From the NCBI GenBank assembly GCA_025869365.1, contig JAOZVV010000005.1:33779-97778 (forward strand): a stretch of 64,000 bases of DNA, read 5' to 3'. The notes beneath the pieces are model-generated. The model was not told the DNA's origin. It did not search any database and worked only from the letters and a program-made list of their open reading frames with translations. Below are positions 49,255 through 60,940 of this stretch, piece by piece; within the stretch, counting starts at the first letter, position 1, and each line of letters starts with the position of its first letter. Origin of the DNA: Pseudonocardia sp. (GTDB lineage: Bacteria; Actinomycetota; Actinomycetes; Mycobacteriales; Pseudonocardiaceae). The translations under genes and the position numbers were made by a program.

Positions 49255-50237
49255 GAGAGTGTTGACGAACCGCGTGGTTCAGTTGGCGAAGTCGTCTGCT
49301 AGCCGGCGAGCGGCTTCGGTCTCGATCGGTCCGGTGGGCTCGATGTCCTCGCCGGCCAGCCGTGCGGCCATCAAGCGGATCATGGCGACCTGGATCATCG
49401 CTTCCGCGTGAGCGATCTTGCGTTCGTAGTCGCGCGCCAACCGTCTGCACCTCGTCAACCAGCCGAAGGTCCGCTCCACCACCCACCGGTGAGGCAGTAC
49501 CTGGAAGCCTTTCACGTCGGCGTTGCGTGGCACCGCGACCACCTCGATGCCCTCCTGGCGTGCGGCCCACCCGACCAGTCCAGCGTCCACGGAGTTGACG
49601 TAGCCACCATCGACCCACACCAGCCCCAGTAGCGGGAACCGTGCCCGTGCCCCGGTCAGCACCCGCCGGGCACCGGCGCGGTCCTGCACCGATGCCGAGT
49701 GCACGATCCCGACCAGCATCAACCCGAGGACATCAACCAGCAGATGCCGCTTGCGGCCCCGGACCCGCTTGCCCGCGTCGTAGCCGATCTCCTCCCCGCC
49801 CTCGCTGGACTTGACCGACTGCGAGTCCAGCACCGCCGCCGAGGGCTGCGGATCGCGCCCATCGGCGGTGCGGACCCGATCGCGCAACACTTCGTGAATA
49901 CGCGCCCAGGAGCCGTCGGCGGTGCGGTCTGCGAACCATCGGTAGGCGGTGTTCCAGGCGGCGAGGTCGTGCGGCACCATCCGCCAAGCACACCCACTGA
50001 CCAGCACATACAGCACGGTATCGATCAGCAGCCGGCGCGAGATTACCGGTGGACGCCCGCCCAGAACCGCGGCCGTGCGGGGCAGCAACGGCTCGATCTG
50101 CGCCCACTGGGCATCGGTCAGGGAGGAGCCATAGGCTGGCTTGCAGACACACACGCACACCCAACCTGATGATCAACCATCAAGATCGACTACCACGCGT
50201 GACACGCCGTCATCCCGCTGGGTTTGTCAACACTCTC
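49255..50237 (-). mobile_element. IS5-family insertion sequence, complete, with TCA target duplication
   Basis: 983 bp bounded by 12-bp inverted repeats GAGAGTGTTGAC (left 49255-49266; right complement GTCAACACTCTC 50226-50237) and flanked by a 3-bp direct repeat TCA (49252-49254 and 50238-50240), the TNA-type duplication of the ISL2-like IS5 group. It carries one transposase gene with all catalytic motifs and so looks intact. The right duplication coincides with the stop codon of the TipAS-like gene. Confidence 0.88.
49279..50160 (-). CDS. IS5-family DDE transposase
   Basis: A 293-residue transposase with the N-terminal DUF4096-like region LTDAQWAQIEPLLPR and DDE motifs: first Asp in VLDSQSVKSSEGG, second in VWVDGGYVNSVD, and Glu in RWVVERTFGWLTRCRRLARD. 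The start is a GTG giving a Cys/Val-rich leader; a downstream start may be used. Single-frame transposase, no programmed frameshift seen. The copy appears functional. Confidence 0.88.
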   Translation of the reverse strand: MCVCVCKPAYGSSLTDAQWAQIEPLLPRTAAVLGGRPPVISRRLLIDTVLYVLVSGCAWRMVPHDLAAWNTAYRWFADRTADGSWARIHEVLRDRVRTADGRDPQPSAAVLDSQSVKSSEGGEEIGYDAGKRVRGRKRHLLVDVLGLMLVGIVHSASVQDRAGARRVLTGARARFPLLGLVWVDGGYVNSVDAGLVGWAARQEGIEVVAVPRNADVKGFQVLPHRWVVERTFGWLTRCRRLARDYERKIAHAEAMIQVAMIRLMAARLAGEDIEPTGPIETEAARRLADDFAN

Positions 50238-56981: not shown

Positions 56982-58346
56982 TCAGCCGTCCTTCGGGAAG
57001 GGCTCGGACTCCAGCGCGGGGCTGTCGCTGGTCGGTGCGACGACGGGGTGCCCGGCGATCCGGACGGCGTTGCGGCCGGCGCCCTTCGCGGAGTAGAGCG
57101 CGCGGTCCGCGAGGCTCAGCACCTGCTCGATCGTCGTGGTCGCCTCGGGCATCACCAGCGCGCCACCGGCGCTGATGCTCAGGCTGCTGATGGAGAGCGG
57201 CCCGTCCGGCGTCTCGATCGGCACGTCGAGCTGTTCGACGCGGATCCGGATCCGCTCGGCGACCATCCGCAGCCCCGCGACCGGCTGGTCCCCGGGCAGC
57301 CCGGGCAGCAGCACCACGAACTCCTCGCCACCGAACCGGCCGACCAGGTCGTCCCCGCGCACCTCGTCCCGGACCGCGTCCGCGACGGCGGCGAGCACGC
57401 GGTCCCCGGCGAGGTGCCCGTGGGTGTCGTTGACGTTCTTGAAGTGGTCCAGGTCCAGCACGAGCAAGGCGAACGGGGTGCCGCCCCGGCGGGCGCGGCG
57501 GAGCTCCTGGCCGGCGCGCACGTTCCACGCGGAGGCGGTGAGCAGGCCGGTCTTGCCGTCCGTCGACGCCGCGGCCGCGAGCTCGCGGACCAGCACCGCC
57601 CGCTGCAGCACCAGGATCGGCGGGAAGGCGAGCAGCACGAACCACCAGGAGATGGTGAGGGTCAGGGCGAGCATCGCGCCCAGGCACAGCGTCGCGACCT
57701 CGACCATGATGTCGTCGAGGTGGCCGAAGAGGTCCGTGGGCCGGGCCTGCGGGTCGCTCGCCGCCACCGCCGCGGCGATCAGCGCGCTGTTCACCGTGGC
57801 GTACGCCGCCGCGGCGAGCAGCAGCACCGCGAGACCGAGCAGGCCGTGCAGCCAGAGCTCCGGGCCGGAGGCGCGCAGCACGATCTCGTGCGCGGCCTGC
57901 ACGGCGAGCAGCACCGTCGAGGTGGTGAAGACGTGCCGGTAGAGGGGGAAGCGCGCGGGCTTCCACACCCGGAACCACAGATGCGTGTAGATGACGACGA
58001 CGGCGGCCATCGCCATGGCCGGCGGTAGGAGTACCGCCGCGGCGAAGGTCCAGATGGTGCTGAGGTCGGTGTAGGACTTCTCGCCCACCCGGCGGCGGGC
58101 GCGCTCGACGCCCGTGGCGATCTCGGTGTGGGCGATACCGGTGACGGCGAGCAGCAGCGCGAGGAGGACAGCGGACACCGACGGGTCGAAGGCGATCGCC
58201 GATGCGATCACCAGTCCCGCGGCGCACGACTCGACAACAGCGAGGGCGGCGATCACCCGGGTGGACTGAGTCCATACCGCCCACCGGGTGATGCCGCACC
58301 TCCGTCGAGGTGACTGTCTCAAAGGAGCGACTCCTGTCCAGCACAC
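56982..58346 (-). CDS. Membrane-bound GGDEF diguanylate cyclase
   Basis: About 454 residues. Residues 30-270 contain about six to seven hydrophobic segments, for example VIAALAVVESCAAGLVIASA and LGLAVLLLAAAAYATVNSAL. A C-terminal GGDEF domain follows with LVLDLDHFKNVNDTHGHLAG, GRFGGEEFVVLLPG (active site GGEEF, about residue 337) and an upstream RGDD that fits the RxxD product-inhibition site. It should make cyclic di-GMP. The 5' end is uncertain: GTG 58346 gives a long basic tail, GTG 58256 starts near the first membrane segment. Divergent from the hexapeptide mini-gene array at 58571. Confidence 0.85.
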   Translation of the reverse strand: MCWTGVAPLRQSPRRRCGITRWAVWTQSTRVIAALAVVESCAAGLVIASAIAFDPSVSAVLLALLLAVTGIAHTEIATGVERARRRVGEKSYTDLSTIWTFAAAVLLPPAMAMAAVVVIYTHLWFRVWKPARFPLYRHVFTTSTVLLAVQAAHEIVLRASGPELWLHGLLGLAVLLLAAAAYATVNSALIAAAVAASDPQARPTDLFGHLDDIMVEVATLCLGAMLALTLTISWWFVLLAFPPILVLQRAVLVRELAAAASTDGKTGLLTASAWNVRAGQELRRARRGGTPFALLVLDLDHFKNVNDTHGHLAGDRVLAAVADAVRDEVRGDDLVGRFGGEEFVVLLPGLPGDQPVAGLRMVAERIRIRVEQLDVPIETPDGPLSISSLSISAGGALVMPEATTTIEQVLSLADRALYSAKGAGRNAVRIAGHPVVAPTSDSPALESEPFPKDG

Positions 58347-58570
58347 TGACTGCAGCGGGTCCCGAGAGTAGTCACTTGATCACGGAATCCTGATACCCCG
58401 AAAAGGTAGAGGATCGGCGGCTGCTGACTACGCAGGGTCACGATCGTGGGAGGTGGATACGCCATGCCACGAGAGGGTCGACGGTCGTCGGCTCCTGCGG
58501 CACCACGGTCTTCGAGTGGTCATGGTGCCGTGTCCGGCCGTCCCAGTCGAGCGAAGGAGGGAGTTTCGTT

Positions 58571-58591
58571 GTGCGCAACCGTGCCTGGTGA
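58571..58591 (+). CDS. MRNRAW hexapeptide mini-gene, unit 1
   Basis: GTG start; codons CGC AAC CGT GCC TGG then TGA. AAGGAGGG at 58554-58561 is the ribosome site, 9 nt upstream. It is the first unit, about 220 bp from the divergent diguanylate cyclase start, so the array promoter probably lies in 58347-58550. Confidence 0.85.
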   Translation: MRNRAW

Positions 58592-58725
58592 AGAACGTCG
58601 GTCCGACGAGAGGCCGGGGGACCGGTGAGGGCGAGGACCGAGCGGGCCCCGATGCGGGCCGCGTGTCGCTCGGACTTCTGACCGGCCACGACGGGTCGTG
58701 GCCGCCGGATCGGAGGAGGAACCGC

Positions 58726-58746
58726 ATGCGCAACCGCGCCTGGTGA
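58726..58746 (+). CDS. MRNRAW hexapeptide mini-gene, unit 2
   Basis: ATG start; codons CGC AAC CGC GCC TGG TGA. Strong ribosome site GGAGGAGGA at 58712-58720. The largest gap in the array (155 bp from unit 1) precedes it. Confidence 0.85.
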   Translation: MRNRAW

Positions 58747-58787
58747 GTCCCGAACGAGATCGACGAGCGAGCGAGAGGAGCGGGTTC

Positions 58788-58808
58788 GTGCGTAATCGCG
58801 CCTGGTGA
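58788..58808 (+). CDS. MRNRAW hexapeptide mini-gene, unit 3
   Basis: GTG start; codons CGT AAT CGC GCC TGG TGA. GAGAGGAG at 58773-58780, 7 nt upstream. Differs from unit 2 by two synonymous bases and the start codon. Confidence 0.85.
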   Translation: MRNRAW

Positions 58809-58865
58809 GAACGCCGTGAGGCGGATCGGCACAACGAGCGGACGACGACGTGGAAGGAGCAGGGC

Positions 58866-58886
58866 ATGCGCAACCGCGCCTGGTGA
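58866..58886 (+). CDS. MRNRAW hexapeptide mini-gene, unit 4
   Basis: ATG start; codons CGC AAC CGC GCC TGG TGA. AAGGAG at 58854-58859. Its leader GGAAGGAGCAGGGC is identical to that of unit 5, pointing to a local duplication. Confidence 0.85.
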   Translation: MRNRAW

Positions 58887-58930
58887 GAAGACACGGTCCC
58901 CCGTGGGGCGAGACCCGGAAGGAGCAGGGC

Positions 58931-58951
58931 ATGCGTAATCGCGCGTGGTGA
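58931..58951 (+). CDS. MRNRAW hexapeptide mini-gene, unit 5
   Basis: ATG start; codons CGT AAT CGC GCG TGG TGA. AAGGAG at 58919-58924. Shares its leader with unit 4 yet differs from it at three synonymous codon positions; it has the only GCG alanine codon of the array. Confidence 0.85.
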   Translation: MRNRAW

Positions 58952-59017
58952 ACCGCGTCACATCGGCGTCGTGGTCGTTGAGATCACAGGGGCCTCGTCG
59001 GAGAGGGAGGGCAGGAC

Positions 59018-59038
59018 ATGCGCAACCGCGCCTGGTGA
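59018..59038 (+). CDS. MRNRAW hexapeptide mini-gene, unit 6
   Basis: ATG start; codons CGC AAC CGC GCC TGG TGA. GGGAGG at 59005-59010, 7 nt upstream. Confidence 0.85.
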   Translation: MRNRAW

Positions 59039-59079
59039 GACGCAGTCGAGTTCGGACGGATCGCGAGAAGGGATCGATC

Positions 59080-59100
59080 GTGCGCAATCGCGCCTGGTGA
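59080..59100 (+). CDS. MRNRAW hexapeptide mini-gene, unit 7
   Basis: GTG start; codons CGC AAT CGC GCC TGG TGA. GAGAAGGGA at 59065-59073, 6 nt upstream. Confidence 0.85.
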   Translation: MRNRAW

Positions 59101-59142
59101 ACCGAACAGTTCGTCGCCCGCACCGAGAGAGGGGAACACGAC

Positions 59143-59163
59143 ATGCGCAACCGCGCCTGGTGA
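59143..59163 (+). CDS. MRNRAW hexapeptide mini-gene, unit 8
   Basis: ATG start; codons CGC AAC CGC GCC TGG TGA. AGAGGGGA ending at 59135. A longer gap (118 bp between starts) follows, containing the only AT-richer stretch in the array (CACAAGTATTG near 59210). Confidence 0.85.
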   Translation: MRNRAW

Positions 59164-59260
59164 CACCGACCGCCACCGGACGTTCGTCACCGTACGTGGT
59201 GATTCACGTCACAAGTATTGGGAGCCGAACGGTTCCCGACCGCCACGAGGAGGCAAGCAG

Positions 59261-59281
59261 ATGCGCAACCGTGCCTGGTGA
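59261..59281 (+). CDS. MRNRAW hexapeptide mini-gene, unit 9
   Basis: ATG start; codons CGC AAC CGT GCC TGG TGA. GAGGAGG at 59247-59253, 7 nt upstream. Confidence 0.85.
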   Translation: MRNRAW

Positions 59282-59344
59282 CCGCCCTACCGACCGACCA
59301 CGGATCGGCCCCGCCGAACCGTCCCCGCCGAGACAGGAGACGTC

Positions 59345-59365
59345 GTGCGCAATCGCGCCTGGTGA
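59345..59365 (+). CDS. MRNRAW hexapeptide mini-gene, unit 10
   Basis: GTG start; codons CGC AAT CGC GCC TGG TGA. AGGAGA at 59335-59340, 4 nt upstream. Confidence 0.85.
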   Translation: MRNRAW

Positions 59366-59415
59366 CACCGCCCGCCCATCGCTCCCCGAATCCGCTCCCG
59401 AGGAAGGACCGTCCC

Positions 59416-59436
59416 GTGCGCAACCGTGCCTGGTGA
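59416..59436 (+). CDS. MRNRAW hexapeptide mini-gene, unit 11
   Basis: GTG start; codons CGC AAC CGT GCC TGG TGA. GAGGAAGGA at 59400-59408, 7 nt upstream. Last unit; 229 bp without a recognised gene separate it from the MFS transporter. Confidence 0.85.
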   Translation: MRNRAW

Positions 59437-59665: not shown

Positions 59666-60940
59666 GTGGGACACCGACGTGGCGGCGGGACGAGTGTCTT
59701 CGGCAACCCCGAGTTCCGTGCCCTCTGGCTCGCCGAGCTCGTGTCCGTCGCGGGCGACCAGCTCGCCCGGGTCGCCTTCTCCGTCCTGGTCTACGGGCGC
59801 ACCGGCTCCGCGGCCTGGGCCGCCGCCGTCTATGCGCTGACCTTCCTGCCCGCCCTGCTGGGCGGGGTGCTGCTCGGCTGGGTCGCGGACCGGCTCCCGC
59901 GCCGGCGGGTGATGGTGGTCGCGGATCTGGCGCGCGCCCTGCTCATCCTGCCCCTGGCGTGGCCGGGGATCCCGCTCGCCGTCCTGTGTCCCCTCCTCGT
60001 GCTCGTCGTGGTGCTCGCCTCGCCGCACAGCGCGGCTCAGGGTGCGCTGCTCCCGGACGTGCTGGCCGACGGCGACGCGCTCGAGCGCGGCTTCGCCGTC
60101 CGGCAGATCACCAACCAGACCGCCCAGATCGCGGGCTTCGCGCTCGGCGGGGTCGTCGTGACCCTGATCGGCTCGGAGGCCGCCGTGCTGGCGAACGCCG
60201 GGACGTTCGTGCTCTCCGGGCTGTTCGTCTGGCTCGGCGTCCGGTCCCGTCCCGCCCCGGCGCGGGTCGACGACGCGACCGCCGCGACCGGTCTGCGGAT
60301 CTTCGCCGCGGACGTCAGGGAGGGGGCCGTCGCGGTCTTCGGGGATCCCGGGCTGCGCACCCTGGCGGTCGCCGTCTGGCTCGTCGGCTGCTACGTCGCG
60401 CCCGAGGCGCTCGCCGTCCCCTTCGCGGACGAGATGGGCGCCGGCGCGGGCGCGGTCGGCCTGCTGATGGCGGCGGACCCCGCCGGCAGCGTCCTCGGCG
60501 CCGTCGTCGTGAGCCGCTGGGTGCCCGAGGCCTGGCGGGAGCGGGTCGTCATCCCGGCGGCCGCGCTCGCCGGGCTGCCGCTGGTCGCCTCGCTGTTCGT
60601 GTCGGACGTCGCGGTCGTCATCGTGCTGTGGGGGCTGACCGGTGCCCTGTGCACGATCAGCCTGGTCCCGGCGCAGGCCGTGTTCGTCCGCACGACACCG
60701 GGAGCGGTGCGCGGCCGCGCGACCGGGTTGGCGGCGTCCGGCCTGATCGCGGCGCAGGGCCTCGCCATCCTCGTGTGCGGAGGCGTCGCGCAGGTCTGGT
60801 CCGCCGGGATCGCCGTCATGGTGTGCGGGGTGGGCGGGATCGCCGGTGCCGCCGCCCTGTGGGTCTCGCGCGGCGGGCGCCGGCTACGGGCGGCGCTACC
60901 GCTCGACGACGGGGCGAGCTGCGCGACGCCGGCGGACTGA
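59666..60940 (+). CDS. MFS transporter (drug/peptide exporter-like)
   Basis: A 424-residue major facilitator protein with about 12 hydrophobic segments. The N-terminal FGNPEFRALWLAELVSVAGD and the loop between helices 2 and 3, GWVADRLPRRRVMVVADLAR (about residues 70-90), are typical of DHA-type exporters related to the enterobactin exporter EntS. A GTG start at 59666 follows GGGGGGA. It is the first ordinary gene after the hexapeptide mini-genes and has the same direction, so it could be co-expressed and export their product or something made from it. This link is inference from position only. Confidence 0.85.
   Translation: MGHRRGGGTSVFGNPEFRALWLAELVSVAGDQLARVAFSVLVYGRTGSAAWAAAVYALTFLPALLGGVLLGWVADRLPRRRVMVVADLARALLILPLAWPGIPLAVLCPLLVLVVVLASPHSAAQGALLPDVLADGDALERGFAVRQITNQTAQIAGFALGGVVVTLIGSEAAVLANAGTFVLSGLFVWLGVRSRPAPARVDDATAATGLRIFAADVREGAVAVFGDPGLRTLAVAVWLVGCYVAPEALAVPFADEMGAGAGAVGLLMAADPAGSVLGAVVVSRWVPEAWRERVVIPAAALAGLPLVASLFVSDVAVVIVLWGLTGALCTISLVPAQAVFVRTTPGAVRGRATGLAASGLIAAQGLAILVCGGVAQVWSAGIAVMVCGVGGIAGAAALWVSRGGRRLRAALPLDDGASCATPAD

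Follow-up and report, generated by a model that had tools for sequence, protein, structure and literature searches.

Tiny genes and their neighbours in the window

The window analysed here is a 64-kb stretch of Pseudonocardia DNA. Between positions 58571 and 59436 of its forward strand a pattern search detects eleven genes of 21 bp, each with a ribosome-site-like motif, a start codon, and a TGA stop, and each encoding MRNRAW. This is the array that the preliminary description had claimed, and 100 shuffles did not yield a single unit matching the minigene pattern. Six of the eleven genes start with ATG and five with GTG. They are spread over mixed reading frames with start-to-start distances of 155, 62, 78, 65, 87, 62, 63, 118, 84, and 71 bp, which confirms the mixed frames and the spacing of 62-155 bp reported before. 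The features of the locus are collected in Table 1.

Table 1. Features of the MRNRAW locus (positions in the window)
Feature	Position	Strand	Basis
Minigene 1, GTG start, MRNRAW	58571..58591	+	pattern search
Minigene 2, ATG start, MRNRAW	58726..58746	+	pattern search
Minigene 3, GTG start, MRNRAW	58788..58808	+	pattern search
Minigene 4, ATG start, MRNRAW	58866..58886	+	pattern search
Minigene 5, ATG start, MRNRAW	58931..58951	+	pattern search
Minigene 6, ATG start, MRNRAW	59018..59038	+	pattern search
Minigene 7, GTG start, MRNRAW	59080..59100	+	pattern search
Minigene 8, ATG start, MRNRAW	59143..59163	+	pattern search
Decayed twelfth unit: GTT replacing start, RHRTW, TGA	59182..59202	+	pattern search, 3 mismatches
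Minigene 9, ATG start, MRNRAW	59261..59281	+	pattern search
Minigene 10, GTG start, MRNRAW	59345..59365	+	pattern search
Minigene 11, GTG start, MRNRAW	59416..59436	+	pattern search
Divergent membrane diguanylate cyclase, 454 aa predicted, proposed receptor	56982..58346	-	Pfam GGDEF PF00990 1.5e-36; conserved partner of arrays
N-terminal membrane domain, residues 1-245, proposed ligand-binding part	57612..58346	-	sequence comparison, structure models
D94 codon, code residue (N94 if acid precedes Trp in peptide)	58065..58067	-	
T100 codon, code residue	58047..58049	-	
Y182 codon, code residue (Y: Asn3; F: Gly3; R: Asp3 peptides)	57801..57803	-	
MFS transporter, 424 aa, proposed peptide transporter	59666..60940	+	Pfam MFS_1 1.2e-21; recurs near arrays

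The array detector picked up the MRNRAW array alone in the window, and the genome it belongs to (5.27 Mb in 200 contigs) contains no exact match to the pattern beyond the array. With up to three mismatches allowed, 12 scattered, chance-like matches are found besides the array, compared to 9 with a reversed control pattern. Relative to the consensus codons the copies in the window carry ten synonymous and no non-synonymous changes. Their codons are 92% identical between copies, the flanks at 28-30% are unrelated, and the spacers between the minigenes have no detectable similarity to one another. A promoter and terminator scan of the array region, run with sigma-70 type models only, found nothing. 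Elsewhere in the window, an IS4/5-type transposase is encoded on the reverse strand (49279-50160).

The protein encoded divergently from the array carries a GGDEF domain with the GG(D/E)EF signature of diguanylate cyclases. Its GGEEF motif and the I-site-like residues R330 and D333, which we take to be the residues forming the inhibitory site in PleD-like enzymes, are invariant in 44 homologues, and this invariance predicts an active diguanylate cyclase. The N-terminal membrane domain matches no Pfam family at E<1, MASE9 included. A homologue from another locus (L121, one of four proteins compared) reaches MASE9 with an E-value of 6.4e-4 and 20.1 bits, which is below the curated cut-off of 24.3. 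Confidence in the AlphaFold models is high (pLDDT 87.0 for the whole protein and 88.5 for the N-terminal part), and in a structural comparison the membrane domain appears to resemble the S-components of ECF transporters, weakly so by Foldseek. A Foldseek search of the PDB with the N-terminal model gave no match under an E-value of 1, and with the full model there were GGDEF matches only, among the matches listed.

Recurrence of the arrays and of their partners

Nine of the 62 genomes of the genus carry the exact MRNRAW pattern in arrays, with 6 to 16 copies. In the search of actinomycete genomes proposed in the preliminary description, run on the named genome collection, the pattern is present in 46 stretches, seven of which, all from Pseudonocardia, contain arrays, and the other 39 have one match each. 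In this search MRNRAW arrays are confined to Pseudonocardia because other lineages use other peptides. Homologues of the MFS transporter (E-value 1e-60 or better) are encoded in 50 of the 62 genomes, and 20-kb loci were fetched from 40 of these 50, so that MFS adjacency in these loci is partly by choice. Together with the window they make up 41 loci. A Trp-bearing minigene is repeated at least twice in each of the 40 further loci, and a repeated minigene lies near the MFS gene in 26 of 30 MFS loci. The peptides of the other arrays are, for example, MRNKSW, MRNHNW, MRNWNW, MRNRTWI, MSKDWN, MGKDWN, and MRGKNW, and tryptophan is present in all these peptides of the genus. That it might be invariant was believed at first and then dropped; MRNRDN, MRTREH, and MNGRED have none. 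In P. halophobica (L017:5560-6588) what is presumably a tryptophanyl-tRNA synthetase-like protein is encoded downstream of the MFS gene.

In 39 unrelated loci, which cover 299 kb, the same array detector did not find a single array. Across the 41 loci a Shine-Dalgarno-like motif precedes 279 of 281 minigene copies but only 170 of 801 other ATG or GTG codons in the same arrays, a figure that is somewhat favoured as the detector required the motif in at least three copies. In five MRNRAW loci there are 37 synonymous changes and one non-synonymous change. All 32 arrays together have 54 synonymous and 83 non-synonymous changes, where a synonymous share of 0.18 would be expected. Three loci with MSNKSW units account for 74 of the 83, and the rest of the arrays have 49 to 9. 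Judging from these counts, the codons of the minigenes are under purifying selection. In those three loci, from three related species, MRNKSW arrays are interleaved with MSNKSW (R2S) units (L143:7512-8567, L144:7564-8933, L148:11162-12418). The first unit, the one nearest to the receptor gene, is often a longer variant than the rest (MRNKSWH, MTGKDWN), as in L143, L144, L148, L128, and L138.

Gene clustering in the 41 loci placed the arrays head to head with one cluster of 84 members, which are membrane GGDEF proteins; where a locus contains two or three different arrays, as some do, every array has a GGDEF gene to itself. Among the arrays of at least three copies in the 40 fetched loci, 32 of 34 face a GGDEF gene of one cluster by the automatic call. 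For the remaining two the cause is a pair of inserted transposase genes (L118) and a gene-call error (L137); with these taken into account they face a GGDEF gene as well. The two transposase-like genes lie between the array and its GGDEF gene at L118:11818-13923. At several facing GGDEF genes the minigene is present as a single copy. A multicopy precursor of a biarylitide-like RiPP, the parallel drawn in the preliminary description, is hard to reconcile with these neighbourhoods. The gene size and the Met-Arg start are like those of bytA, the comparably tiny biarylitide gene, the product of which also starts with Met-Arg. However, the neighbours in the window are the GGDEF and MFS genes, the 41 loci have no recurrent P450, radical SAM protein, or other modifying enzyme next to the arrays, and some families (MRNRDN, MRTREH) are devoid of tryptophan. 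We therefore dropped this explanation, which is most improbable.

The MFS gene is the second recurrent partner. Within the genus it lies at most 800 bp from the array in 30 of 39 loci, which had been chosen by MFS. In the loci from the family, order, and class samples, which were selected by the receptor and not by MFS, an MFS homologue is present in 29 of the 33 loci having a repeated array versus 24 of the 51 lacking one (Fisher 1.7e-4). Judged by gene content and order, a three-part module recurs, built of tiny peptide genes, a facing membrane GGDEF gene, and a nearby MFS gene; both partners are absent from the preliminary description. In the window the MFS gene is on the same strand as the array and begins 230 bp past the last unit. 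This arrangement would suit a translated cis-regulatory leader, in which the mini-ORFs stall ribosomes and thereby control the downstream MFS gene, and ribosomes are known to stall at an Arg-X-Arg motif under an antibiotic. But in 25 of the 30 loci with a close MFS gene this gene and the array are on opposite strands and converge tail to tail, as holds for most clades, and this led us to abandon the idea. Most of the other peptides do not contain Arg-X-Arg, the region has no terminator-like site, and a leader would leave the covariation with the receptor described below unexplained. Such a function is thus highly unlikely.

In genome samples of increasing breadth, homologues of the receptor membrane domain are encoded in 114 of 150 genomes of the family, 67 of 298 of the order, and, by a profile search, 56 of 296 of the class. 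Many of them have no detected minigene, and 51 of 84 loci are without a repeated array, some of these having single copies. Upstream of some receptor homologues outside the genus there are arrays encoding, for example, MSRSWDW, MNKDW, RSRDN, SNRDN/ANRDN, RTREH, MSNHGW, and MNNVTWR, and in another order MRDNTWT, MRDTTWS, and MRGNSWD. In total, the module comprises 64 peptides in 115 peptide-receptor pairs in actinobacteria, with at least two minigene copies in 86 pairs.

Covariation of the peptides with the membrane domain

Within the genus (n=51) the distances between peptides correlate with those between receptor N-termini (r 0.457, 0 of 2000 permutations) and weakly with those between GGDEF cores (r 0.142, 103 of 2000). 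For 67 pairs overall the values are 0.528 and 0.372, and the GGDEF core contributes nothing after conditioning on the N-terminus (-0.098). The 21 tandem loci serve as a control: here the facing GGDEF protein has a correlation of 0.564 (0 of 2000) and the N-terminus of the second GGDEF protein one of -0.003 (888 of 2000). Correlations of the peptide with species markers are weak (dxs 0.30, glgX 0.29), and nothing of them is left once the N-terminus is given. The receptor columns bearing the signal are 100, 182, 145, 128, 104, and 94, in an analysis done without the truncated L255.

The array adjoins the 5' end of the receptor gene, so that part of the correlation stems from co-inheritance. It could be imagined that linkage is all there is, with the array and the 5' half of the GGDEF gene next to it being inherited or exchanged jointly and without any contact between their products. 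On that side of the array no coding sequence is closer than the N-terminal half, and the correlation drops with distance, being weaker for the receptor's own GGDEF core and absent for the tandem paralogue. However, the MFS gene, which flanks the array on its opposite side, has an r of only 0.16, which turns to -0.18 given the N-terminus. Linkage also cannot predict which residue changes, whereas predictions at residues 94 and 182 held for held-out receptors in other genera, and the Asp3-Arg182 pairing described below recurs in another order. Linkage as the sole cause is therefore very unlikely.

For these predictions three rules were recorded, together with the residues to be expected in 30 further receptors, before any of those receptors was fetched and read. 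The 30 loci represent 17 peptide types, so that orthologues inflate the following counts. Rule 1, an acidic residue before the tryptophan going with N94 and any other residue with D94, was right in 26 of 30 loci. Rule 2 concerns the residue three before the tryptophan. If this is Asn (Asn3), T100 together with Y182 was found in 9 of 9 loci, and if it is Gly (Gly3), F182 in 11 of 11. Asn3/Tyr182 and Gly3/Phe182 were thus right in all 20 testable loci, ten loci not being covered by the rule. As residue 100 is still Thr in 10 of 11 loci of the Gly3 group, only the 182 part of rule 2 is general. Rule 3, on residue 128, failed, with about one of five predictions right, and was given up.

The facing GGDEF proteins of the 21 tandem loci have N94 with an acidic peptide in 6 of 6 cases versus 0 of 15 others, and Y182 with Asn3 in 11 of 11 versus 0 of 10 others. 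In the second GGDEF proteins of these loci residues 94 and 182 are not associated with the peptide. Tandem paralogues without a minigene are mostly D94-T100-Y182, whichever peptide the locus carries. In a tree-based pair test, independent changes for acid/N94 were in the same direction in a mean of 5.7 cases and in the opposite direction in none (p 0.031); for Asn3/Tyr182 the numbers are 4.8 and none (p 0.0625, which misses 0.05).

The pooled table of 115 pairs takes in four corrected or added loci and 16 class-level array loci (of 29 class-level loci in total, 17 have repeated arrays). In this table Asn3 goes with Tyr182 in 59 of 59 pairs, Gly3 with Phe182 in 23 of 26, and Asp3 with Arg182 in 12 of 17; an acid before the tryptophan is accompanied by Asn94 in 41 of 44 and the absence of an acid by D94 in 64 of 71. 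Restricted to the 86 pairs with at least two copies, the corresponding numbers are 43/43, 11/14, 12/17, 19/22, and 58/66. Exceptions at residue 182 are Asp3 with Gln (two) or Tyr (three) and Gly3 with A182 in one clade (three). Those at residue 94 are MSDRDW (D94 in three loci), MRNWGW/MRNWGF (N94 without an acid in five loci), and MRDRGN (T94). The rows left out are L133_10 (overlapping frame), L320 in the pooled table (gap at 182), and L139_14 (no GGEEF), which with MRNRDWT and D94 would count against the acid/N94 rule. The GGDEF gene that directly faces the MRNRDWT minigene is another one than L139_14 and is split over two frames (L139:14773-16028). The code residues suggest contacts, in which a charge repelling the acid of the peptide would be removed and an arginine would meet the aspartate of the peptide.

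A possible route from the peptide to c-di-GMP

Judging from these comparisons, MRNRAW is likely the dedicated ligand, and probably a cell-to-cell pheromone, of the divergent membrane diguanylate cyclase, and we hold this with considerable confidence. Of the roles offered in the preliminary description (a precursor, signal, or effector peptide, the amount of which matters) it is the signal that gains ground through the recurrence of the arrays, the purifying selection, and the covariation with the receptor-like neighbour. The minigenes would be translated from one mRNA as leaderless peptides not requiring any precursor processing, and their copy number would raise the peptide dose. The MFS protein may carry the peptide across the membrane, the direction of transport being inferred. 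A pocket of the S-component-like domain near residues 94, 100, 145, and 182 could be where the peptide docks, and docking would switch the attached GGDEF domain and hence the c-di-GMP level. Since every lineage pairs a peptide of its own with a matching receptor, such a system would signal that kin are present.

Concerning the side of the membrane from which the peptide is read, two lines of evidence on receptor topology disagree. The loops 82-96, 127-136, and 196-211 contain on average 3.7, 2.0, and 1.8 Lys and Arg residues and the loops 52-57, 158-168, and 231-235 only 0.4, 0.5, and 0.1. These positive-inside counts put the former loops inside, which argues that residues 94, 100, and 128 would sit in the cytoplasmic half and would fit an extracellular pheromone less well unless the peptide is re-imported. 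It is possible, though doubtful, that the same pair acts within the cell: the peptide would dock from the cytoplasm, the receptor would read the output of the cell's own array, for example as a measure of translation capacity, and the MFS protein would remove or recycle the peptide. Six residues leave no room for a secretion signal, which also speaks for this. However, sequences that diverge from species to species while the receptors keep matching them are typical of signals between cells, and the S-component/5TMR receptors treated in PMC11109136 are oriented oppositely, with the N-terminus outside.

Extending the pheromone reading beyond the window, we lean slightly towards an actinobacterial language of dosage-amplified hexapeptide pheromones, each with its own S-component-like cyclase, in which a residue code (Asn3-Tyr182, Gly3-Phe182, Asp3-Arg182, acid5-Asn94) would turn kin recognition into c-di-GMP. 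If true, precursor-free peptides of five to eight residues, which are missed by gene finders, would be dedicated ligands of c-di-GMP enzymes, and a ligand would be assigned to a membrane sensor domain without a Pfam name. Peptide signalling would be added to actinobacteria at large scale, with a compact and readable peptide-receptor code, the specificity of which could be addressed by single substitutions. The odd form of the genes would have its reason in copy number taking the place of a processed precursor.

A description of this peptide-array/GGDEF system was not found in the open-licence PubMed Central literature. The closest relatives in design are the leaderless communication peptides of the SIP/RopB class in Firmicutes. 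As portrayed in the passages on them in PMC10518010, they are encoded by an ultrasmall leaderless ORF for the mature peptide, divergent from the receptor gene and often with a convergent gene downstream, and their sequences vary between lineages with matching receptor residues, all of which resembles the arrays. The 21-bp frames have likewise their own start and stop and no leader. According to the same passages, those peptides are hydrophobic, of about eight residues, and bind a cytosolic RRNPP receptor (PMC10518010), whereas the peptides here are charged, have five to eight residues, and are encoded in multicopy arrays. The facing gene, too, encodes not an RRNPP regulator as in Firmicutes but a membrane diguanylate cyclase in actinobacteria. 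In BDSF-RpfR and AI-2-dCACHE, as proposed here, a population signal is read directly by a c-di-GMP enzyme. The quorum ligands of such enzymes covered in the passages of the review PMC8846402 are a fatty acid and AI-2, and no peptide pheromone is among them. For receptors with the six-helix S-component fold, such as 5TMR sensor kinases and GGDEF fusions, the ligands given in the passages of PMC11109136 are small metabolites, pyruvate for instance, rather than peptides encoded in the genome. Compared to these receptors, the protein described here has one more helix before the GGDEF domain.
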